NCBI GenBank assembly: GCA_021781915.1
Contig: JAJXVX010000003.1
Span: 1-32,696 of the forward strand
DNA from: a bacterium
Lineage (GTDB): Bacteria > Patescibacteriota > Saccharimonadia > Saccharimonadales > UBA4665
DNA: 32,696 nucleotides
Direction: 5' to 3'
Part shown: piece after piece, positions 1,281 to 26,042 of the stretch
Layout of the letters: each line of letters starts with the position of its first letter
Position numbering within the stretch: position 1 is the stretch's first letter
Program-made: the position numbers and the translations under genes
Notes under the pieces: generated by a model
What the model saw: the letters and a program-made list of their open reading frames with translations, nothing else
Told to the model about the DNA's origin: nothing
Databases searched by the model: none

Positions 1281-2117
1281 ATGGAAGAGCTGGATTTCAC
1301 TAAAATAAAAAACTATATGGATGAGGGTGAAGCTAATGATCTTGCTAGCGAGATGGAAGAGTTAGAGATGTATCAGCAAGAATTGCAGGACATTAGGTAT
1401 ATCACTGAAATAATAAAATCTAGCGACATAGTAGCCCCACTTAATCTTGATTTGGATAACATTACACCTGATGATTTTTTTGAAGTTGAGCAACTAGACG
1501 ATGACGAAGCAGAGTCAATTGAGATCGATTTTATAAGAGCCATATATCAGATGACCCATGTCCTTTATGGTGTCAGATATGATTATCCACTTAGTATATC
1601 GACGGCCGTTACCAGTATTGCTGCATTGGAAGAATTTTCGATTAACGAGATTAAAAGTTGGTATAAACTAATCGAAGATTTATCCGGTTTAAAAATTTTG
1701 TCCGGTTTTGAGAAGATAGATAATAATCGCATAAAAGAATTCCAAGACCTTGAGACCAAAAAATGGGAACAGGACTACATTAAAAGCTACGTTAAACATG
1801 GGTTGATTGATTCGATAACTCATAGTTATGGTCAACATGATAATTTAAGTGAGCTGATTTCTCAGATGATATTATTGGTCGAAAGAAACATTGCCGAAGA
1901 AAGATTCTACAGTTCCACAAGCGTTGAAGTCCTCGGTCTTTTTGACGCCTCTCAATTAAAATCCAATATTAGACGACTGAATGGCGGATATCTAAAGGAC
2001 AGTGATATTGACGGTATCTTAGATCATATTGCGGCGTATTTTGAAGAATCGGAATGGGAAGTTATTGAATATCCAATCTTTTTGCCACCCGAAAAAGCTA
2101 ACTACATGTGGAACTAG
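1281..2117 (+). CDS. Hypothetical protein, paralog of the next gene
   Basis: 278-aa ORF; aligns with 2179..3108: INEIKSWYKLIEDLSGLKILSG vs LNEVKAWFKVIEDFSDVEILSG; both start with a (E)ELDFxKI motif and end near YPIF. Confidence 0.8.
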   Translation: MEELDFTKIKNYMDEGEANDLASEMEELEMYQQELQDIRYITEIIKSSDIVAPLNLDLDNITPDDFFEVEQLDDDEAESIEIDFIRAIYQMTHVLYGVRYDYPLSISTAVTSIAALEEFSINEIKSWYKLIEDLSGLKILSGFEKIDNNRIKEFQDLETKKWEQDYIKSYVKHGLIDSITHSYGQHDNLSELISQMILLVERNIAEERFYSSTSVEVLGLFDASQLKSNIRRLNGGYLKDSDIDGILDHIAAYFEESEWEVIEYPIFLPPEKANYMWN

Positions 2118-2141
2118 CCGGACTCTATTTATAAAATATAC

Positions 2142-2170
2142 TTGAATAAAACTTACATTTATTATATAAT
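2142..2170 (+). promoter_or_regulatory. sigma70-like promoter TTGAAT-N17-TATAAT
   Basis: TTGAAT 2142-2147, TATAAT 2165-2170, ATG 8 nt later at 2179. Confidence 0.6.
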
Positions 2171-2178
2171 ATCTATCT

Positions 2179-3108
2179 ATGGAAAATAGTGGTGAATTAG
2201 ATTTTGAAAAAATAAGACAATTTCTCGGTGGAGTTTCTGCTGAAGAAGCTGGTTTGAAGCCTTTCCAAGGCGAACCCAGTAATCTAAGATTAAACGAAAA
2301 ATTAGCCGAACCAGATAGCGGTGGATTGCACTTTATAGCTGATGGTTTTTCTTTGCTTAGAAATCAGATTGATGAGATGACTTTGATCCCTAATGATGAC
2401 GAGAGTTGGCATTTATTTGACTACCTAGAAGAGCTTAGTCAATTTGGTGTTCCAGTGCCAAGTGAGATCGATATTACCCAGATATCACCTGATCAGATTA
2501 AAAATTGGCGTAATGAAGATTATCCAAATCAACTAAAAACCTTTTTTGGTGTTTTAGAGAACTTAAATCATGCAATGGCCGGTCATAAATTATCAAAAAA
2601 TATTTATATTTCTGAAGCCGCCGCCGGGATTGCTTATTTACCAGGTCTAACACTTAATGAAGTTAAAGCATGGTTTAAAGTTATCGAAGATTTTTCAGAT
2701 GTCGAAATACTATCCGGTGACGATTATACCGATTATCAGTTAATTCTAGACTTGAATATTTTAGAGGGCAAAAAAAAGCAGGCTGAATATTTAAAGAATC
2801 ACTTAAAACAAAGTTTGGTTAAAGATATAACATATCAAATTGGCAATTATTCCGTTATCTCTGAATTAGTTGATCATTCTTTTAATTTTGTCGGATCTTT
2901 GTACGACCAGACGGCTGGAGATTTCAATGATATTGACGAGCTCAACCCCGAAACTAGCTATCTAAAAGAAAAAATATCGACCGCTGCAAAAGAGTTTTTG
3001 AGTCACGATGAAGTTGCCGAAATATTCGATAAAATAGATGACTTTTATAGCACCGTTAAGCCTTTTGAACTTAAGTATCCTATATTTGAAAAATCAAGCT
3101 ACAATTAA
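2179..3108 (+). CDS. Hypothetical protein, paralog of the preceding gene
   Basis: 309-aa ORF with collinear similarity to the 1281..2117 product. Confidence 0.8.
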   Translation: MENSGELDFEKIRQFLGGVSAEEAGLKPFQGEPSNLRLNEKLAEPDSGGLHFIADGFSLLRNQIDEMTLIPNDDESWHLFDYLEELSQFGVPVPSEIDITQISPDQIKNWRNEDYPNQLKTFFGVLENLNHAMAGHKLSKNIYISEAAAGIAYLPGLTLNEVKAWFKVIEDFSDVEILSGDDYTDYQLILDLNILEGKKKQAEYLKNHLKQSLVKDITYQIGNYSVISELVDHSFNFVGSLYDQTAGDFNDIDELNPETSYLKEKISTAAKEFLSHDEVAEIFDKIDDFYSTVKPFELKYPIFEKSSYN

Positions 3109-3111
3109 ATT

Positions 3112-3957
3112 ATGGAATCTAGACAAGAAATTGCTGATGTCTCGAATGGCGTTGGCTTTAGGATGTATGTCGGTGGCCGAAAAGAAACCCATAAGCTAGA
3201 TTCTGTTGATGATTCTTTCAGCGAAAAGTACAATGTTCTAAACCTGGCCGTTAAAGAGAAGGTAATACTATTAAAAGGAGCCAAAGGTTCTGGTAAGTCA
3301 GAGTTCCTCGACAGTTTAATGGAGGACTGCAAGAATAATGATTTGTCGTGTTTTAAACTCAGTGTTCACATTAATGGCGGAAAGTCCGAGGGCGTTGCCA
3401 ATATTATTGATATATTAGAAAAATATCTTGAACACACAGCTCAATACGCTGGCATGATTTTAATCGACAACTGTGATTTTATCGGATATAGGGGAAAGCG
3501 ATCACGAATTAGCGCAGAGGCTTATTCACAAGATTTTCTGGAACTAATAAGTGAACTTAATGATCCTTGGATTAGAAATAATAATCTCATGATTGCTACT
3601 AGTGGTAGTGATCGATGGATTGATGAACAATGGCGTTGGCCGAAGGGTAGTTTAATTTACAAAAATGCTGCCAGTGTACTTGGATTATTTGAACACCGTC
3701 ATCAATTCCAGGGTCAACTAACTAACAGTCATTTTATGGAAATACTGACTTCTCGACTGTTTGATCGGTTTGTTAATCTTAGCGAAGCGGCTGATTTTGA
3801 AAAAACCGATCGAAGAGCCAGATATTTAGCTGGACAGGTTCTTCTAGAAGCCGATGGTAGGGGCTTAGCTGATTTTAAACATGCTACTAAGATTGATCTT
3901 GATTATGTTGAAACCGGCGATATAAAAGCAGCTTTTGATTTACTCTCTAAGACCTAG
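3112..3957 (+). CDS. P-loop (AAA-like) ATPase
   Basis: Walker A GAKGSGKSEF; Walker B-like MILIDNCD; sensor-like NLMIATSGSD. Upstream -10-like TACAAT at 3100-3105. Confidence 0.75.
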   Translation: MESRQEIADVSNGVGFRMYVGGRKETHKLDSVDDSFSEKYNVLNLAVKEKVILLKGAKGSGKSEFLDSLMEDCKNNDLSCFKLSVHINGGKSEGVANIIDILEKYLEHTAQYAGMILIDNCDFIGYRGKRSRISAEAYSQDFLELISELNDPWIRNNNLMIATSGSDRWIDEQWRWPKGSLIYKNAASVLGLFEHRHQFQGQLTNSHFMEILTSRLFDRFVNLSEAADFEKTDRRARYLAGQVLLEADGRGLADFKHATKIDLDYVETGDIKAAFDLLSKT

Positions 3958-6008: not shown

Positions 6009-6047
6009 ATTGTTTATTAATAAGCATAAGAAAGATTGATATTTATT

Positions 6048-6584
6048 ATGAAAACAGTCGAAAATACAACTAGTAAATACAACGGTAGTCATCGTCAGGC
6101 AAAAAGATCTCATCATTCAGTTCTAAAACCGGTTGCCGACGATAATTCCAACCATTTTTCTGATAGCTTTGAATCCGGGATTAAGCCTAAATCGGGTTTT
6201 AAAAAAGCCATCGGAGTTATCGCTTTAGCAGCATCCGTCATAGGCGGAGCTTACGCTTTTACTAAGTATGAAAATTTTAAAAAAGAACTGACTAATGCAA
6301 CAACAGAACAACAAATCGCTACACAGCTTGATCACCAAGGCATTGTCTTTAATAGTGTAGATGTTTCAGGTAAGCAGGTCATAACAAATATACCAGTGTC
6401 GGCTACTTCGAAAAATAGCTTTGCATTTTATACCGATATATTGCCAACCGGCCAAGTAGAACTGTATCAGAACTTATCTACTGCCAGTGGTGAAACCAGA
6501 CACATTTATCCAATAGTAGATGTTAGGAGTGAGCATATGGCTCAAAAAGCACTTCAGGCAGTAATGAGTCAGGTCAGTAAATAA
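6048..6584 (+). CDS. Hypothetical single-TM exported/membrane protein
   Basis: ATG at 6048 (the tracked ORF uses TTG 6036). TM GVIALAASVIGGAYAF; C-term YTDILPTGQVELYQ resembles the YYPTG motif of the next gene. Confidence 0.65.
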   Translation: MKTVENTTSKYNGSHRQAKRSHHSVLKPVADDNSNHFSDSFESGIKPKSGFKKAIGVIALAASVIGGAYAFTKYENFKKELTNATTEQQIATQLDHQGIVFNSVDVSGKQVITNIPVSATSKNSFAFYTDILPTGQVELYQNLSTASGETRHIYPIVDVRSEHMAQKALQAVMSQVSK

Positions 6585-6622
6585 TCTTTATTTACCAAAA
6601 AAGAACCAAAGGACTAATTTAA

Positions 6623-7759
6623 ATGGAAAAGACGCCAGTCCATAGTCGAGCCTTACCTAAAATCGCAGGTGTTGGTATGGCATCGCTTGCCCTAGTAGGT
6701 ACTCTAAAATATCTAGAAATGACCCAGTCATCGAGTGCTAGCAGTCCTGCTGGGGCTACTTCTAGCGAAATACTGCCCGGGCCAAACTCAGATAGATCAC
6801 CAAGACCAAGTCTTAAGCCATGTTTAACGCAAGAAAAAAACCTGGTTGTAGTGAAGGTTTCCAATCAGCCTCCAAGTAGTGTGACTAAGCAAAACCTCAA
6901 TATTTACACTTATTATCCAACCGGCCAAATTGACTCTACGACCTCAACTACTGTAAAGACCACGTCTAAACAAGAAATTTCGACTAATTACACTTATTAT
7001 CCAACCGGTTCTTTGGATCAGTTGAGTAGTCATAGTCTAAAAAAATCTCCCCAAGGTACTAGCGAGAAATGTTTAACGCCAACAGTCTCGGGCATAAATA
7101 TAGAGCTAATCAAAAAGTCCGATATTTTTACTGACGAGCAGATTAATCAGTTGATTGCCAATAGTGGCGTCTATATGGAGGTCGCTAAAAAGTATAACTT
7201 ACCCTGGCAATTACTGGCGACTATACATTGGCGTGAAACTAATTTATCAATGGTAAATCCCGGCAATAACAATGGTTTATTTCAGGTTTATGACGCTTAT
7301 TTTAAACCTGGCCGTCAGACTGAGAGTAATTTTATTTCTCAGGTCGAAATTGCGGCTAGATTACTAGCCGATAATTATGCTAAAAAGGCTCATATTACTG
7401 GTAGGATTAGCGACGGAAAATCTATTAATATGATGGATTTGGGTAATTTATTAATGGCCTATAACGGTCAATCAAGTTATTATTATCATCAAGCCTATGA
7501 CATGGGTTATCATAGTCCTGATCTTGGATTTTTAGGCTCACCGTACGTCTCGAATCTAATAAATCGGTCATTCGATAGTCGGTTCAATGGAAATTGGGAG
7601 CAAATCAGATACGATAATGGCTACGCTATGCCAGCCGACCAAAGACCCGGTACCTTACCGGTTTTCGTACTCTTAATGCAAGCAACTGATCCTGAAATTA
7701 AACTTGATTTTAGTGGTTTTAAACAATCTTTGGCCAAGGATATTACTAAAAGATTCTAA
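6623..7759 (+). CDS. Exported lysozyme-like / lytic transglycosylase-like protein with two YYPTG repeats
   Basis: NLPWQLLATIHWRETNLSMVNPGNNNGLFQVYD resembles the lysozyme-like catalytic Glu region; N-terminal hydrophobic segment; NIYTYYPTGQIDS and NYTYYPTGSLDQ repeats. Confidence 0.7.
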   Translation: MEKTPVHSRALPKIAGVGMASLALVGTLKYLEMTQSSSASSPAGATSSEILPGPNSDRSPRPSLKPCLTQEKNLVVVKVSNQPPSSVTKQNLNIYTYYPTGQIDSTTSTTVKTTSKQEISTNYTYYPTGSLDQLSSHSLKKSPQGTSEKCLTPTVSGINIELIKKSDIFTDEQINQLIANSGVYMEVAKKYNLPWQLLATIHWRETNLSMVNPGNNNGLFQVYDAYFKPGRQTESNFISQVEIAARLLADNYAKKAHITGRISDGKSINMMDLGNLLMAYNGQSSYYYHQAYDMGYHSPDLGFLGSPYVSNLINRSFDSRFNGNWEQIRYDNGYAMPADQRPGTLPVFVLLMQATDPEIKLDFSGFKQSLAKDITKRF

Positions 7760-9324: not shown

Positions 9325-10170
9325 TTAAATCTGTTCCAAGATTTTTTTGCCAATTGTATTTAGAATTAAGATTGTTCCGACTGTTGTTAAGACAAAACCA
9401 ATCACAGCAATTAGCCATAAATTATTTTTTGGATGATCGTGAAAAAAAATAATGCCAAATAAAATAGGGAAAATAGTTTCAAAAGCGATGACTATTGTGT
9501 TGACATATGATGCTCTGGCTTTTTTCAACGCAATCGTGAAAAAAATCATTCCAACGACGCTATAGATAAAGATTGACCAAATTAAAGGACTACCAAAAAC
9601 GCTCAAATAATTTTTACCAAAATGAAGCGCTCGGCCGACTACAGCTATTGCTCCAAAAGATAATCCGGTTATTGAAGCCAAAACGAAAGTTGAATACTTA
9701 GCTAAGTATTTTGTGAAAATAATACCCAGCAAAGTTAAGATTAATGGTGTTATAACCAACCAAAATTCAGTTAGAGTCGATATTTTAGTCGGTCTTTCGG
9801 GGCTGGCGATTGCCGTCAGTAATCCAAGGCCAACAAACATTAATCCAAGCGATAAAATTAATTTAAGCGTCGGTTTGGATTTTAGGATGATCATTTCTAT
9901 CAGGATAGTGAAGATAACACTACAGGCAATAATTGGTTGAACTACAAATAATGGTAATCGATGAACGGCAACCAATGATAATAACCAGGCAATAATATCG
10001 AGTACTACTCCGATTATGTAGTTAAGACTACTCCTTAAATTTAAAAATAAATTTATACCGGATGTTTGCTTGTTGCTTATTCTATCAACAGCAATTTTTT
10101 CTAAAACGACCGCACTACCATTAGACATGGCACTCAAAAAAGCTGATGAAATGGCTATTATTAAAAACAT
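9325..10170 (-). CDS. EamA/DMT-superfamily multi-TM transporter
   Basis: 281 aa, about 9-10 hydrophobic helices; EKIAVDRISN..., VQPIIACSVIFTILIE, VNTIVIAFETIFPILFGIIFF. Confidence 0.7.
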   Translation of the reverse strand: MFLIIAISSAFLSAMSNGSAVVLEKIAVDRISNKQTSGINLFLNLRSSLNYIIGVVLDIIAWLLSLVAVHRLPLFVVQPIIACSVIFTILIEMIILKSKPTLKLILSLGLMFVGLGLLTAIASPERPTKISTLTEFWLVITPLILTLLGIIFTKYLAKYSTFVLASITGLSFGAIAVVGRALHFGKNYLSVFGSPLIWSIFIYSVVGMIFFTIALKKARASYVNTIVIAFETIFPILFGIIFFHDHPKNNLWLIAVIGFVLTTVGTILILNTIGKKILEQI

Positions 10171-10187
10171 CTATATTAAATTTAATC

Positions 10188-13100
10188 CTATAGTGGTGGA
10201 GCATCAAGAGTTTGCAAGCTACCATTGCTGAAAGTTTTTCCACCCCTCAATCTATAGGCAGATGCTGGGTGATAATAGACAGTCGAATAACTAAGTGAAC
10301 TACGATTGCCAAAAACATCGGGGAATGTTGCTGTCTGGGTATCGTCTAGAATGTATGTTACGAACATGTACCTGCCAATATTGGTGGTTGATCCGCAGCC
10401 GTTTGAAGTAAATACGAGAGGTTTAGGTAGACCCAAGAAACTAAGTCCCAAGGGTAATTTAGTCTGACTATTGAATGTTGTGCAGGCGTTGGAGGCAAAT
10501 TCATATCTTACTCTAATTCCACCTGGACCACTTATTCCTCCGAGTCCGGGATTTGTTAGGTTGGTTGTGCAAAGACCACTATTGCAAGCACCACCATTAA
10601 CTAATATTTCGATTGGAGTTGGGTCGTTTGTACTAGATCCAGTAAAATCTAGTAACATTGAATATCTACCTACTCTTGGCAGGGACTGAAGACCAGCATA
10701 TGATACTGTTGATTGAAGTGTTGAGCCTGATATTGTAGCGCCACCAATTTCATAGACATAGCCATTATAGACAACTGATGTTGCCATATATAAACCAGTA
10801 GCTGGTACTGAAGTTTCAGTCCAGTTACCAAGTGTTCCATCAGAATTAATTGGTGCGTATTCGACTCCTGTTGCTGCGGTACTATTAGCACTACCTTCAA
10901 TTTCATAGACATAACCATTGTAGGCCACCGAAGTTGCCATACTATCCCCCAAAGTACCGTTTATTATATTGATTAGACTAGTCGTTGCTGTCCAAGTTCC
11001 GAGCGCTCCGTTTGAACTAATTGGTGCATAATATACTAACGAAGTTGGGTTTGATCCACTATTACCACCAATTTCGTATAAGTATCCATTATATGCAACT
11101 GATGTTGCGTACCAGCCCATAGTCGGCAGACTAGTCGTTGCTGTCCAAGTTCCGAGTGCCCCAGCTGTTCCAGTACACCCTCCAAGACCGCTATTTGTTG
11201 ATGTGCAAATCAAAGCATAATCTACCACCGTATTGCCACCACCTATCTCATAGACATAACCATTGTAGGCCACCGACGTTGCATTTTGAACTGCGGCCGG
11301 CAGACTAGTCGTTGCTGTCCAAGTTCCGAGTGCCCCAGCTGTTCCAGTACACCCTCCAAGACCGCTATTTGTTGATGTGCAAATCAAAGCATAATCCACC
11401 ACTGCGGTTGTAGCAGTGGTATAGCCACCTATCTCATAAACATAACCATTGTAGGCCACCGACGTTGCTGCATCGGTTGCGGCCGGCAGACTAGTCGTTG
11501 CTGTCCAGGTACCCAATGTTCCGTTAGAATTAATTGGCGCATAATCAACCACCGCACTAACAGATCCACTATTTCCACCTATCTCATAGACATAACCATT
11601 GTAGGCCACCGACGTTGCTGCATCGGTTGCGGCCGGCAGACTTGTTGTGGTATTCCAACTACTTAGAGTACCGGGGCCTCCATTGTTGATTTGAGCATAG
11701 TCAACCGTAGCGACGTTTGCTGTAGTATAACCTCCGATTTTGTAGAGAAAACCGCCGTAAACTGCAGATGTGATTACGGCAGTTCCTGTTGGCAGAGCGG
11801 CTGTAGTCGTCCAGGCCCCCAATGTTCCATTCGAATTTATCAGTGCGTATTGAACTACTGCTGTAGAAGCTGTAGTATAGCCCCCAATCTCGTATAAATA
11901 GCCATTATTTACTTGGACTGAATCATAGTCAGTAGCAGTCGGCAGACTAGTCGTTGTGCTCCAAGTTCCAAGTGTCCCAGCCGTACCGGTACACCCTCCG
12001 ACGCCACTATTTAATGTAGTACAGATTAGAGCATAATAGACAGTCGCAATAATTGAAGTTCCATTATATCCACCGACCAAATAAACATAGGTGTTGTTTG
12101 TTGTTGCCGTAGACACGTCGGTCGTGACCGGCAGACTAGTCGTTGTGCTCCAAGTTCCAAGTGTCCCAGCCGTACCGGTACACCCTCCGACGCCACTATT
12201 TAATGTAGTACAGATTAGAGCATAATAGACAGCAGATTGGGTAACAGTCTTATTATGAGATGTAATAGCGCCACCTATCTCATAAACATAGCCATTAGCC
12301 GTAATTGAAGCAGAGTTAAAGGTGGCAGCCGGCAGACTAGTCGTTGTGTTCCAAGTTCCAAGTGTCCCGCCAGTGATTTGGGCGTAGTAAACAACGGCCG
12401 TCGCTGCTGACGTAAGCCCACCTATCTCATAAACATAGCCATTGTATTCGATTGAAGATGACTCAGAAGTCGCGACTGGCAGACTGGTAGTCGCTGTCCA
12501 GGTCCCAATCGCCCCAGCAACTCCGGTACACCCCCCGATGCCACTATTGGCTGTCGTACAAATCAGAGCAGAATCAACAGTCGTAACAGGACTAGTGGAG
12601 GTTGTTTGACCACCTATCTCGAATAGATAACCATTATAGGCTACAGACGTTGCATAAGCTGTAATAGCCGGCAGACTGGTTGTCGCCGTCCAAACTCCCA
12701 AATATCCAACTGGGTTGATGGCTACAGACGTAACAGTTGCGACATTTGTGCCGTTCTGGGTACCGGCTAATTCATAGACATATCCATTTAACACAGCAGA
12801 TGTAGCTCTGGTAACACTAACACCAACACCGTTTGTCGCCGTCCACGCCCCGATTGTTCCGTCAGAATTAATCGGGGCATAATGAGCTGTAGAAGTAATC
12901 AAATAAATGTAACCGTTATAAACTCCACCTGATGCTGATGCATAGGCTGCCGGTAGGGCAGTCGTCGTAATCCACGCCCCAAGCGAACCGTTAGAATTAA
13001 TTGGTACATAATAGACAGTCGTAACACCGGCTGTGCCATTGTTACCACCCATTTCGTAGATGTAGCCGTTATAAACAACCGACGTAGCAAGTTTAGTGGC

Positions 13101-14609
13101 GACCGGCAAACTGGTTGTCGCCGTCCACGCCCCAAGCGTCCCATTGGCATTGACCGGTGCATAGTAAACATTAGCCATAACTGTACCGGTTGAGTCGTTA
13201 CCACCCATTTCGTAGATGTAGCCGTTATAAACAACCGACGTGGCAACGGAAGCGGCTGTCGGTAAACTGGTTGTCGCCGTCCACGCCCCAAGCGTCCCAT
13301 TGGAGTTAACTTGAGCATAGTCGACAACCGTAACTGAAGGTGATCCACTACCGTCATTACCACCAATTTCATAGATGTAGCCGTTATAAACAACCGACGT
13401 GGCGTAGTAAGTACCTAAAGGCAGACTAGTAGTTGGATTCCAAGCTCCAATTGTTCCTGCGCTGATTGTTGCATAATCAACCACTGGGCTTAAGGTTGTA
13501 GTGTAGCCACCAATTTCATAGATGTAGCCGTTGTAAACAACCGTAGTGGCGCTATAGACGGCAGCTGGCAAAGCTGTAGTAGTCGACCAACTACCAGCAC
13601 TCCCACCAGTTAATGAACCTTCCGTAATTTGATTATTGGTTGTATCAATTTGAATGTCACTTTCATTATTACCGAGTTGCCAATTACTGGCCGATACAAC
13701 TACAATGCTTGGGTCAATTGAAAAACTTCCATGGATTTGGTTTAATCTACTGGCAGAAATTGTCACAATATCGCCACTTAAACTAATCTTTAGGTTGTGA
13801 CTAGCTGAAGATACTTTACCGTTGTCTGTAAAAATTTTTAAAGCTGGCAAAACAAAAACTAAATTATTCTTAACAGAATTTTCTCGTGCACTAATAACTG
13901 CCTGCTGGTCAGATAGAGAACCGTAGCTGATATTACCGAACAAAGCAGGATTAGCTGAGTAGATACCTAGATTGCCGCCTGGCATCATTCTAGCCTCTAA
14001 ACTGCTAGGTAGTTTTAATTTAAAACGAAGAACTATGCTGTTTGGGGCTTTTGAGTATACGATATCTTCTTTAGTGCCATTGGCTTTGACGGTATAGATA
14101 AGCTTTGGGCCATTTACTCCGATTGGATAAACTAGGTGGTTTGATACATATTGTCCTGGTAGAGTTTTAAACAAAGGAATCATCGTAAAAGATAAATTAC
14201 TTTTGTTATCATAGGTCGTAATACCACTGTTTATATTGGTTGGTAATTTGACACTAAAAGGTAGCCTGCCATTAGGGTTATAGCCGATTGTTAGATGTCC
14301 TGATTGGTGCCCCATGCCAGGAAATTCCGTGCTAGACTTATTGATTGAAGATTGTCCTAGAATGTATGAAGCTGTTTTTTTGTCGTAGGCAAATTGTTTC
14401 AGTAGGCTTTGATCCGGTGGCCCGACTAGGTTTTGGATACTAGCCGATAACTTATAACTGTTTGAAACAAGTATGTTAAATGTCGCGATTGAACCAGCCA
14501 CAATAACAACAAAAATAATAGACCCGACAATCGTGTAGACTTCTTTGCGTTTTTTAAGAAGTTTAGTTTTTTTAAGTCGAGCTAAAATCTTTGTGTCTAG
14601 TTTGAACAT
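10188..14609 (-). CDS. Giant membrane-anchored Kelch-like repeat protein
   Basis: 1473 aa; N-terminal cytoplasmic basic segment plus TM (VYTIVGSIIFVVIVAGSIATF); 18 units of consensus GTLGTWTATTSLPAATxxATSVxYNGYVYEIGG...; unique C-terminal domain. Confidence 0.9.
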   Translation of the reverse strand: MFKLDTKILARLKKTKLLKKRKEVYTIVGSIIFVVIVAGSIATFNILVSNSYKLSASIQNLVGPPDQSLLKQFAYDKKTASYILGQSSINKSSTEFPGMGHQSGHLTIGYNPNGRLPFSVKLPTNINSGITTYDNKSNLSFTMIPLFKTLPGQYVSNHLVYPIGVNGPKLIYTVKANGTKEDIVYSKAPNSIVLRFKLKLPSSLEARMMPGGNLGIYSANPALFGNISYGSLSDQQAVISARENSVKNNLVFVLPALKIFTDNGKVSSASHNLKISLSGDIVTISASRLNQIHGSFSIDPSIVVVSASNWQLGNNESDIQIDTTNNQITEGSLTGGSAGSWSTTTALPAAVYSATTVVYNGYIYEIGGYTTTLSPVVDYATISAGTIGAWNPTTSLPLGTYYATSVVYNGYIYEIGGNDGSGSPSVTVVDYAQVNSNGTLGAWTATTSLPTAASVATSVVYNGYIYEMGGNDSTGTVMANVYYAPVNANGTLGAWTATTSLPVATKLATSVVYNGYIYEMGGNNGTAGVTTVYYVPINSNGSLGAWITTTALPAAYASASGGVYNGYIYLITSTAHYAPINSDGTIGAWTATNGVGVSVTRATSAVLNGYVYELAGTQNGTNVATVTSVAINPVGYLGVWTATTSLPAITAYATSVAYNGYLFEIGGQTTSTSPVTTVDSALICTTANSGIGGCTGVAGAIGTWTATTSLPVATSESSSIEYNGYVYEIGGLTSAATAVVYYAQITGGTLGTWNTTTSLPAATFNSASITANGYVYEIGGAITSHNKTVTQSAVYYALICTTLNSGVGGCTGTAGTLGTWSTTTSLPVTTDVSTATTNNTYVYLVGGYNGTSIIATVYYALICTTLNSGVGGCTGTAGTLGTWSTTTSLPTATDYDSVQVNNGYLYEIGGYTTASTAVVQYALINSNGTLGAWTTTAALPTGTAVITSAVYGGFLYKIGGYTTANVATVDYAQINNGGPGTLSSWNTTTSLPAATDAATSVAYNGYVYEIGGNSGSVSAVVDYAPINSNGTLGTWTATTSLPAATDAATSVAYNGYVYEIGGYTTATTAVVDYALICTSTNSGLGGCTGTAGALGTWTATTSLPAAVQNATSVAYNGYVYEIGGGNTVVDYALICTSTNSGLGGCTGTAGALGTWTATTSLPTMGWYATSVAYNGYLYEIGGNSGSNPTSLVYYAPISSNGALGTWTATTSLINIINGTLGDSMATSVAYNGYVYEIEGSANSTAATGVEYAPINSDGTLGNWTETSVPATGLYMATSVVYNGYVYEIGGATISGSTLQSTVSYAGLQSLPRVGRYSMLLDFTGSSTNDPTPIEILVNGGACNSGLCTTNLTNPGLGGISGPGGIRVRYEFASNACTTFNSQTKLPLGLSFLGLPKPLVFTSNGCGSTTNIGRYMFVTYILDDTQTATFPDVFGNRSSLSYSTVYYHPASAYRLRGGKTFSNGSLQTLDAPPL
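11124..11222 (-). repeat. Copy A of a 99-bp perfect direct repeat (copy B at 11298-11396)
   Basis: Identical cggcagactagtcgttgctgtccaagttccgagtgccccagctgttcc...caaatcaaagcataatc read at both positions. Confidence 0.9.
11298..11396 (-). repeat. Copy B of the 99-bp perfect direct repeat
   Basis: Identical to 11124-11222; offset 174 bp. Confidence 0.9.
11940..12043 (-). repeat. Copy A of a 104-bp perfect direct repeat (copy B at 12129-12232)
   Basis: Identical cggcagactagtcgttgtgctccaagttccaagtgtcccagccgtacc...gcataatagacag at both positions. Confidence 0.9.
12129..12232 (-). repeat. Copy B of the 104-bp perfect direct repeat
   Basis: Identical to 11940-12043; offset 189 bp. Confidence 0.9.
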
Positions 14610-15868: not shown

Positions 15869-17464
15869 CTAGAGAGTGCTTAAATTGGATATTAATTGTT
15901 GGTAGTAGGAACCTAGACCAGCTTCATTTAAGGCTTGCTCAAGTGAAATTGCTCCGGCTGGGGCTGTTACGTTAACTGGAGTTGAGTTTGGTTTTAGGGT
16001 TAGGTTTAGCGATAAACTACTAAGTGATGCACCGCTCCCCGATATGTTAAATACTACTTGGTTTGATTTTGTATCAATTAATGAATTAATAGTAATTGAG
16101 TTACCACCACTACTGAATCCTAAGTAAAAAGGAAATTTTGCGCCATCATAATTCTTTAAGCCAGCTATAACATAATCTGATGAAGTTGATGAGGTCGGTA
16201 CTTTAATCTGTGTAATGTATCTTGTCAGGCCGGTTGAAACCCACATATCAAAAGTATCGGCAGACGTAATACTGTTGACCGATGAAAGAAGGGAATCAGA
16301 ACCCATTAAGTTACTTAGACTTTGACCGCTTGATTTACTAAGCCAACTGGCTAGATAAGTTTTCGCGAAGGCATTCTGAAGAGCAGTAATATAATTTTTT
16401 AGGTTTGCTTTAACTAGGCCAACCTTATAATGGTAAGCCGATTGATTATTAACTAGCTCAATTCCATAATTTTTGACTACCGTTAGGACGGAATATTTCG
16501 GGCTAGAATTAAATAAGTACTGTTTATTAACTAAAGCAATTGAATTGGCGGCCGATATAATATCTGCTGAAGTAGGTGTTTTAGCTGCAATTGATGATTT
16601 ATTTAATTGATTAAGTATAGTGTGGTTTACTTCAATCCATTGATTATCTAATTTGGAGTATGGCGACGCTGCGTTACTGAGGCTACTGAGAATTTTGCTG
16701 AAACCGGCTAATTTCAAATATAAATCTGGGGTTCCAGAAGAGTTCGCAATCTCCATGCCATTAAAGGTCAGGTTTTGCCCAGAAACATTTAAATTTAAAC
16801 TCAATTTTGAGTTGCGTCCATCGGAAAGTTGAGAAATATTCCCAGTAATTTTAGAAGCACCGCTACCATAGCTTAGATTTCCAAACGTAGATGTACCCTT
16901 AATAGGACTATTTGATTGTATTTTAGCGTAAGAAATCAGATTATCTAAACCAGTTGAACTGTTTGACAGAGCCTGACTATAAATTACATTTGGATTCATC
17001 CAATAAGCGAAGTAAAAAACAACTACCACAATAATTAAAAGCACTAAAGCACCGGAAGCCACTACTAGTTTTTTAAATCGTTTGAGAAAATTAACTTTAG
17101 GTTGATTTTGATCAGGCTGTTGCTGGTTAAAATCAGGCTTAGTGATTGATGGCCCACCTACGGTAATGCCGTCAACCTTATAAGAATTCATAGGTTCAAC
17201 GGCTGATATTGGACTGGACATTAGTGAGGTTTCAGGCGTTGCTGGTTCAATAGATTGAGGTTGCTCATTATCCGTAGGCAGATTTTCGCTTATCTGAACT
17301 GGCTCTACTTGAGCAGCGGAATTTTGACTGGTTAAATTATCTGTTGAATCAATTGACGTCATTTCAGTCTGAGGTGCAGGTTGGTTGTCCGGTGGAGTTG
17401 TTGGATTTGGTGGTGGAGTACTTGGGTAATTAGTTTGATTTTGATTGTTGAATTCATTTTCCAT
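15869..17464 (-). CDS. Single-TM membrane protein with Pro/Gln/Asn-rich cytoplasmic N-terminus and a large extracellular domain
   Basis: 531 aa; NQNQTNYPSTPPPNPTTPPDNQPAPQ low-complexity region; TM LVVASGALVLLIIVVVVFYFAYW; soluble Ser/Asn-rich C-terminal part. Confidence 0.7.
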   Translation of the reverse strand: MENEFNNQNQTNYPSTPPPNPTTPPDNQPAPQTEMTSIDSTDNLTSQNSAAQVEPVQISENLPTDNEQPQSIEPATPETSLMSSPISAVEPMNSYKVDGITVGGPSITKPDFNQQQPDQNQPKVNFLKRFKKLVVASGALVLLIIVVVVFYFAYWMNPNVIYSQALSNSSTGLDNLISYAKIQSNSPIKGTSTFGNLSYGSGASKITGNISQLSDGRNSKLSLNLNVSGQNLTFNGMEIANSSGTPDLYLKLAGFSKILSSLSNAASPYSKLDNQWIEVNHTILNQLNKSSIAAKTPTSADIISAANSIALVNKQYLFNSSPKYSVLTVVKNYGIELVNNQSAYHYKVGLVKANLKNYITALQNAFAKTYLASWLSKSSGQSLSNLMGSDSLLSSVNSITSADTFDMWVSTGLTRYITQIKVPTSSTSSDYVIAGLKNYDGAKFPFYLGFSSGGNSITINSLIDTKSNQVVFNISGSGASLSSLSLNLTLKPNSTPVNVTAPAGAISLEQALNEAGLGSYYQQLISNLSTL

Positions 17465-24953: not shown

Positions 24954-26042
24954 TTAGTTTTCGTGCAGGATATAGCCCTCGCCTTTTCTCGATTCAATCG
25001 TGTAATTTTGTGAATCAAAAGCACTGTGTTTTCTTAATCTGTAAATCAGTGCATTGAGAGCCCAGTCGCTGATAATGCCATCTTTCTCACTCCAGACATA
25101 GTCACAGATAGTTTCTTTTAGGACTATTCTGCCTTTATTTTGTAGCAAAATTTTGAGCAATCTTTTTTCTTTTATCGGTAGATGCTGCTTGCCGAGTGAA
25201 TGAATATATTCTTCAAGCAATGGAGAAAAAGTCTCATATTTATTATTTTGTTTTCTGATATAACCAAGATTTAATAGTTCATTGCCTCGGTCGGGATTGT
25301 TCCTCGACAGAACGGAATTTAGTATTTTTTTGTTTTTAGCACTCAGTCCGTTATAGAGATCTTTTACAACTAGATTAACCATTGGGTCGGACAATGGTCG
25401 ATTAAGATTTTGACATCTCATTAGAACTTGAAGGAGTAATAGATGACCGCCGGCTAGATGAAGTGCTCTTGGGTCAATTTTTTGTTTGTCAATTGATCGG
25501 TAAACCTCACTTAAATCATTTTCAGTGTATCCAGTAAAATAGTTAGTTTTAGTAACTAGGCTTAAAATGTCTTTAATCTTGTGGCCATGAGTTTCTATGA
25601 GGGGATGAGAAGAAACTAGAATCATCGTAATTTTATTTCGATTAGAATCTCTTAGGAAACGAAGATTATCGAAAAGATTTTGATCTAAAATGTCTTCTAG
25701 TCGATCCAGCCTATTAAATACGATAATTAGTCGACCTGTTTGATTAGATTTTTCAACCATTGCTTGGCTGATATCGCTAAGAGAGGCATTATCTTTTTTT
25801 AGATTAAGTTTTTGTGCAAATTGGGCATAAAAAGCTTCTCGGCTGAATTCAGCCATTTCAAAGGAATTTATGAAAAGATAATTTCTAGAGTCTTTTTGTG
25901 AGAGGGAACGAAGGAAGAAAGTAACTCCGGCCCCTGGCATCGCGACCAGATTTATCGATATGCCGGAATCAATATCGTCGTGGCATTGATTGGATAAATC
26001 TTTACAAAAATCGTCAGAATAATGATGAGAAGTATATAACAT
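24954..26042 (-). CDS. AAA/STAND-like (degenerate P-loop) domain fused to C-terminal OmpR/PhoB-type winged-helix DNA-binding domain
   Basis: N-term VAMPGAGVTFFLRSL (P-loop without Lys), LIIVFNRLDRL; C-term KGRIVLKETICDYVWSEKDG...DWALNALIYRLRKH...YTIESRKGEGYIL matches the trans_reg_C pattern. Confidence 0.8.
   Translation of the reverse strand: MLYTSHHYSDDFCKDLSNQCHDDIDSGISINLVAMPGAGVTFFLRSLSQKDSRNYLFINSFEMAEFSREAFYAQFAQKLNLKKDNASLSDISQAMVEKSNQTGRLIIVFNRLDRLEDILDQNLFDNLRFLRDSNRNKITMILVSSHPLIETHGHKIKDILSLVTKTNYFTGYTENDLSEVYRSIDKQKIDPRALHLAGGHLLLLQVLMRCQNLNRPLSDPMVNLVVKDLYNGLSAKNKKILNSVLSRNNPDRGNELLNLGYIRKQNNKYETFSPLLEEYIHSLGKQHLPIKEKRLLKILLQNKGRIVLKETICDYVWSEKDGIISDWALNALIYRLRKHSAFDSQNYTIESRKGEGYILHEN

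Follow-up and report, generated by a model that had tools for sequence, protein, structure and literature searches.

The stretch of DNA analysed here (the window) comprises 32,696 nucleotides of contig JAJXVX010000003.1, from the metagenome-assembled genome of a Saccharibacterium (Saccharimonadia; 518 kb in 47 contigs, 68% complete), a tiny organism that is probably parasitic. The largest gene in the window is a single open reading frame (ORF) with an ATG start and no internal stop codon (Table 1); the next largest ORF encodes only 703 amino acids. An earlier model-made reading of the letters and their ORFs, without database searches (hereafter the sequence-only reading), had described this gene as the largest in the window and its product as a membrane-anchored protein with 18 Kelch-like units. 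The ORF is real and its rank holds, with the strand corrected to minus. We refer to the product as the Kelch-18 protein. In a scan for promoters and terminators, the number of sites was not above that in shuffled sequence.

Table 1. Position of the Kelch-18 gene in the window and of the features encoded within it.
Feature	Window position	Strand	Basis
Whole gene, 1473-aa protein	10188..14609	-	ORF
Basic cytoplasmic N-terminus, aa 1-27	14529..14609	-	10 K/R against 2 D/E in aa 1-25
Single transmembrane segment, aa 28-49; putative uncleaved signal anchor	14463..14528	-	Hydropathy; AlphaFold helix
Conserved N-terminal domain, aa 50-329, extracytoplasmic and beta-sandwich-like; without a Pfam family	13623..14462	-	Alignments, AlphaFold (pLDDT 86.4), no significant match in Pfam scan
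Kelch units 1-6, aa 341-639, proposed propeller 1	12693..13589	-	Unit positions, unit HMM, AlphaFold, Foldseek
Kelch units 7-12, aa 640-984, proposed propeller 2	11658..12692	-	Unit positions, unit HMM, AlphaFold, Foldseek
Kelch units 13-18, aa 985-1311, proposed propeller 3	10677..11657	-	Unit positions, unit HMM, AlphaFold, Foldseek
Stretch with five Cys-pair loop inserts ICTTxNSGxGGCTGxAG; Cys aa 684/694, 800/810, 863/873, 1077/1087, 1135/1145	11175..12560	-	Unit listing; motif count
C-terminal domain, aa 1312-1473, ending RLRGGKTFSNGSLQTLDAPPL; no Pfam family	10191..10676	-	Alignment of C-terminal domain

The repeat region consists of 18 units anchored on tryptophan, which start at residues 341, 390, 443, 495, 546, 589, 640, 704, 753, 820, 883, 933, 985, 1035, 1097, 1155, 1206, and 1263. 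A hidden Markov model (HMM) of the unit also counts 18, each significant; the number and the unit consensus given by the sequence-only reading were thus both correct. Five of the units hold a loop insert with two cysteines, which that reading had not recorded. Pfam Kelch_1 matched the protein at 38.6 bits (E 7e-10, cut-off 20.1), and a phmmer search against PDB matched the Kelch domain of KLHL17 at E 8e-11. Judged by these matches, the Kelch homology of the window protein is secure and far above chance. Its relatives match Kelch profiles far more strongly (e.g., L151 with 268 bits to Kelch_KLHDC2). A match to HigB_toxin (aa 983-1023, 2.7e-6) was judged to be spurious or due to a mis-seeded profile, and not the sign of a toxin, because it overlays one Kelch unit and no stretch passes alone. 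The repeat region (aa 341-1311, 971 aa) contains 0.3% lysine, 0.1% arginine, and 17.7% threonine, a composition possibly connected with O-glycosylation or an unusual surface chemistry.

The NANM profile (PF24996) reached its cut-off as well (48.1 versus 45 bits, E 1e-12), as might be expected if the protein were an exported Kelch-type enzyme resembling galactose oxidase or NanM. However, the best stretch covers profile positions 298-339 of 350, which is one blade and not the full-length profile, and no galactose-oxidase family matched the window protein. Nor do three propellers whose units are homogenised (mean identity 52%) offer an obvious single catalytic site, no structure search for a catalytic cluster having been made. 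We regard an enzyme as quite improbable.

The number of units is nearly invariant across the family. We counted units with the iterated unit HMM in 48 complete ORFs that contain the N-terminal domain (N-domain); 18 units were found in 39 of them, 12 in three, 17 in four, 19 in one, and 11 in one. Two of the four 17-unit members (L039 and L147) show an eighteenth unit at a looser threshold, and L032 has a gap of blade size. A count by regular expression gave 9-18 units and was too strict to use. Six Kelch ORFs in the same loci lack the N-domain, and these contain six units each (the sixth is weak in L049). In a genome of the same genus, an ORF of 3344 aa (L035, 2592-12626) encodes about 30 Kelch units grouped 6/6/6/6/5; non-Kelch fibre repeats of 60 residues lie between the groups, and the whole resembles a beaded fibre. 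Since the homologues share only about 30% identity, recent common descent alone does not account for the constant number. The sequence-only reading had expected the repeat number to vary between strains; this expectation is contradicted by the comparison, which is one between species and not between strains of one species.

The units inside the window protein are on average 52.6% identical to one another, whereas units at equal positions in different proteins share 35%; most other members are far less homogenised, with 25-43% between units. At four-fold sites, units 9 and 10 differ by 7% and units 14 and 15 by 11%, compared with 71% expected at saturation. Copying between neighbouring units, through duplication or conversion, has therefore been recent, and the total is still 18. 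Such similarity would suit a freely expanding tandem repeat, that is, a superhelical surface protein, or one of variable length, in which changes in repeat number would serve antigenic or length variation. The fixed number, with multiples of six in most of the homologues that do not have 18 units, largely refutes this explanation, to which we give hardly any credence.

AlphaFold was run on aa 280-1473 with 27 homologues. The prediction (mean predicted local distance difference test, pLDDT, of 79; predicted template modelling score, pTM, of 0.73) contains regular short beta strands throughout the repeats and a strand-rich C-terminal domain (C-domain) at lower confidence. In Foldseek searches, single six-bladed Kelch domains were matched; for human NS1-BP the TMt was 0.82-0.85 and the root-mean-square deviation (rmsd) 2.9-3.2 A. 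Phage and poxvirus Kelch proteins in a viral library matched likewise, which reflects the fold only. The sequence-only reading had named AlphaFold of the repeat region as a check, and the prediction agrees with a beta-propeller. About 22 of 46 members contain a linker of 31-42 aa located exactly between units 6 and 7, and four members have an insert between units 12 and 13. Because the unit number is fixed (18, with 12 or six elsewhere), a linker recurs after unit 6 in the family, and the AlphaFold and Foldseek results agree, the evidence strongly favours three six-bladed propellers as the predicted arrangement, over both a superhelix and unrestrained expansion of the repeat. Of the two arrangements that the sequence-only reading had offered, the propellers thus gain support and the superhelix is disfavoured.

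The N-terminus would hold the Kelch-18 protein in the cytoplasmic membrane. The Kyte-Doolittle maximum is 2.4 at aa 31-49, and the remainder of the 1473 residues contains no further hydrophobic stretch. A sortase-type anchor (LPXTG, transmembrane segment, and basic tail) is not present at the C-terminus, which ends in LQTLDAPPL without a hydrophobic stretch. The positive-inside rule and the absence of another transmembrane segment suggest an N-in/C-out orientation; the membrane anchor and outward orientation proposed before are thereby supported at the level of sequence. In contrast, the region following the membrane segment is not the Gly/Ser/Asn-rich stalk of about 270 aa that had been described. 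It is a conserved domain with a confident AlphaFold prediction (pLDDT 86, pTM 0.83), in which the long N-terminal helix of the membrane segment is followed by a beta-rich, sandwich-like fold. Its content of glycine, serine, and asparagine (31%) is no higher than that of the repeats (29%) or the C-terminus (30%). The Foldseek matches of the N-domain, to beta-sandwich domains of the GH92 type, were all weak and partial (TM about 0.31, rmsd 10 A), and no fold was assigned to it for this reason.

The C-domain, previously called unique, is common to homologues across the order. It sits at or near the end of most members and has the signature RLRxGKTFxxGxxQPLDTP. Pfam scans returned no significant match for either the N-domain or the C-domain. 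In one genome (G179, loci L137/L138), a C-domain ends an open frame of 10,914 aa, in whose last 5882 aa no Kelch unit was found.

Separate searches of 198 genomes of the order were made with profiles of the N-domain and of the C-domain. The N-domain profile matched 52 genomes and the C-domain profile 49, mostly the same ones. The family, defined by an N-domain, Kelch units, and a C-domain, is thus patchy, occurring in about 25% of the sampled genomes and often in single copy; the window protein combines all three, with 18 units, in a single ORF. Kelch units are present in every complete N-domain ORF examined. In a sample of the phylum, strong N-domain matches were confined to the class, and those beyond it were weak and partial.

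The N-domain tree consists of two well-supported groups, A (20 rows, including the window protein) and B (33 rows). Group A sequences mostly lack big inserts, whereas those in group B mostly have inserts and neighbour genes. The window protein groups with sequences from another taxonomic family (G053) and from its own (G029); the nearest relative is the former (54%; bootstrap 96, SH-aLRT 62). This placement makes horizontal transfer of the gene possible. A foreign origin is not shown by base composition, as the GC content at third codon positions is 0.35 for the Kelch gene and 0.28-0.37 for its neighbours; the high GC stems from codon positions 1 and 2.

A second homologue in the same genome is cut by contig ends, with one piece closing contig 30 and the other opening contig 2. 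These ends have an identical 126 bp in common; the pieces are therefore most likely one gene broken by the assembler, and counted across this overlap the paralogue also has 18 units. Recent gene conversion between the two copies was not supported. There is no long near-identical DNA tract (the best matches are 71-77% over 65-124 bp, and identity of 82-89% extends over no more than 38-49 bp), and the two copies take separate places in the N-domain tree.

In about 30 of the 53 family loci, a fibre-like exported ORF of 0.9-2.2 thousand aa lies directly upstream on the same strand, and in about 20 the gene for a single-transmembrane protein of about 250 aa lies directly downstream. Four of six fibre-like proteins scanned contain a CBM_4_9 carbohydrate-binding domain. 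This arrangement, together with the conservation of the N- and C-domains while the units vary, would fit a structural or assembly partner of the giant fibre-like protein, serving it as a stalk, cap, or membrane anchor and not binding a partner cell itself. However, both the window gene and its paralogue are surrounded by housekeeping genes and have no such gene beside them, and searches of this incomplete genome turned up no fibre homologue; we consider a mere fibre partner rather unlikely.

In the window, the Kelch gene is flanked by rmuC, on the opposite strand, and by a gene for an EamA-type transporter (9325-10170), so that the three-gene arrangement is not seen here. The transporter gene starts 17 bp downstream on the same strand, and co-transcription of the two is possible; their adjacency is not conserved in relatives. 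Elsewhere in the window, 15869-17464 (minus strand) encodes a single-transmembrane protein of 531 aa that is Pro-rich at its N-terminus and matches no Pfam family. At 6036-7759 (plus strand), two consecutive proteins have an N-terminal hydrophobic stretch and no Pfam match, the second appearing lytic-transglycosylase-like by eye. Three genes at 1281-3957 (plus strand) encode two similar-looking proteins without a Pfam family and then a protein with a weak AAA/NACHT-like P-loop. An unusual regulator at 24954-26042 (minus strand) combines an N-terminal AAA ATPase (AAA_22, 1.1e-6) with a C-terminal OmpR-type winged helix (Trans_reg_C, 6.9e-11).

Ligand binding through the loops is common among Kelch propellers. 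Given the CBM-bearing fibre neighbours, the accessory nature of the family, and the fact that cultivated Saccharibacteria live as epibionts (PMC12206443, PMC10633639, PMC11665869), we lean towards cell-surface adhesion or recognition of partner cells or matrix as the likeliest role of the Kelch-18 protein. The folded beta-rich N-domain would adjoin the membrane and bear three consecutive six-bladed propellers, followed by the conserved C-terminal beta domain. The propeller loops would present ligand-binding surfaces, some enlarged by the Cys-pair inserts, which may form disulfides; in relatives, inserted Gly_rich_2 and PA14 domains would enlarge loops instead. In this way the propellers may recognise glycans or proteins, whether these belong to the matrix or to a partner cell. 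Blade number would be locked because each propeller must close, and the loop sequences would remain free to change.

Several observations weigh against this reading. The closure of the propellers and the grouping of units as 1-6, 7-12, and 13-18 are proposals that are not seen directly in the predicted model. Some inserts in relatives, after unit 1 and within units 14-17, fall off the propeller boundaries and inside propellers; the Gly_rich_2 and PA14 domains are among them. Neither conserved neighbour accompanies the window copy, and searches of this 68%-complete genome found no member of the two neighbour families; the absence is weak evidence because of the incompleteness. The family is also absent from most relatives, including four of six genomes of the same genus, so it is not needed for epibiosis in general. 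The host-attachment factor suggested by the sequence-only reading is thus plausible as a candidate, but an accessory family present in about a quarter of the genomes cannot be the general attachment factor of the group.

More tentatively, and with some doubt, we suggest that the 18-blade protein is the constant core of an undescribed Saccharimonadia surface apparatus, comprising the triple-propeller protein, the giant CBM-bearing fibre, and the small membrane protein, that chooses the partner cell. Closure would freeze the blade number while neighbouring blades are still copied, and sequence would vary at constant architecture.

Saccharibacteria in culture live on other bacteria, and one of these Saccharibacteria has predicted surface adhesins that are essential to it (PMC10633639, PMC11665869). 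Little is known of Saccharibacterial partner recognition beyond type IV pili, a type IV secretion system, and a small number of predicted adhesins (PMC12206443, PMC10633639, PMC11665869), and we found no publication on Kelch proteins in Saccharibacteria or Patescibacteria among the open-access papers searched. A definable family with two domains new to Pfam, present in about a quarter of the genomes and often in a small conserved locus, is a concrete target for such work. The retention of 18 units despite recent copying between units also provides a clean natural case of fold closure limiting repeat copy number.

Among known systems, one of the closest is PilX2 of TM7x, a minor pilin that carries an RCC1 seven-bladed propeller on type IV pilus 2 and is a proposed host-binding adhesin (PMC12206443). 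Both are Saccharibacterial surface propellers proposed for host binding; however, the window protein differs in repeat family and blade number (Kelch, six) and has no pilin fold. A signal-anchor segment followed by a beta-rich domain takes the place of a pilin-like N-terminal helix, no pil gene was seen adjoining, and none was recognised in the window. PilY1 of Pseudomonas and Myxococcus is likewise a propeller-bearing surface adhesin (PMC12206443); it is set apart, by its description, as seven-bladed and pilus-associated. Brachyspira BPP43_05035 and Vibrio biofilm adhesins (PMC11444514, PMC10102183) also adhere via beta-propellers on bacterial surfaces; by their description, they are not Kelch triple propellers and their flanking domains are unrelated.

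DDB1 is an intracellular, non-Kelch protein. It appeared among the Foldseek matches and also has three propellers per chain; however, these are arranged differently, with an rmsd near 30 A over the whole. With the six-bladed Kelch propellers of the KLHL family, Keap1, NS1-BP, and the designed SAKe6, the window protein shares the unit of about 50 aa, the GG motif, the W/Y anchors, and, by prediction, six blades closing a propeller. In contrast to these, it has a predicted row of three propellers, a probable extracytoplasmic location, and flanking N- and C-domains without a Pfam family in place of BTB/BACK. Kelch propeller surface proteins are a known kind, and the Kelch-18 protein with its conserved N- and C-domains is new within it.

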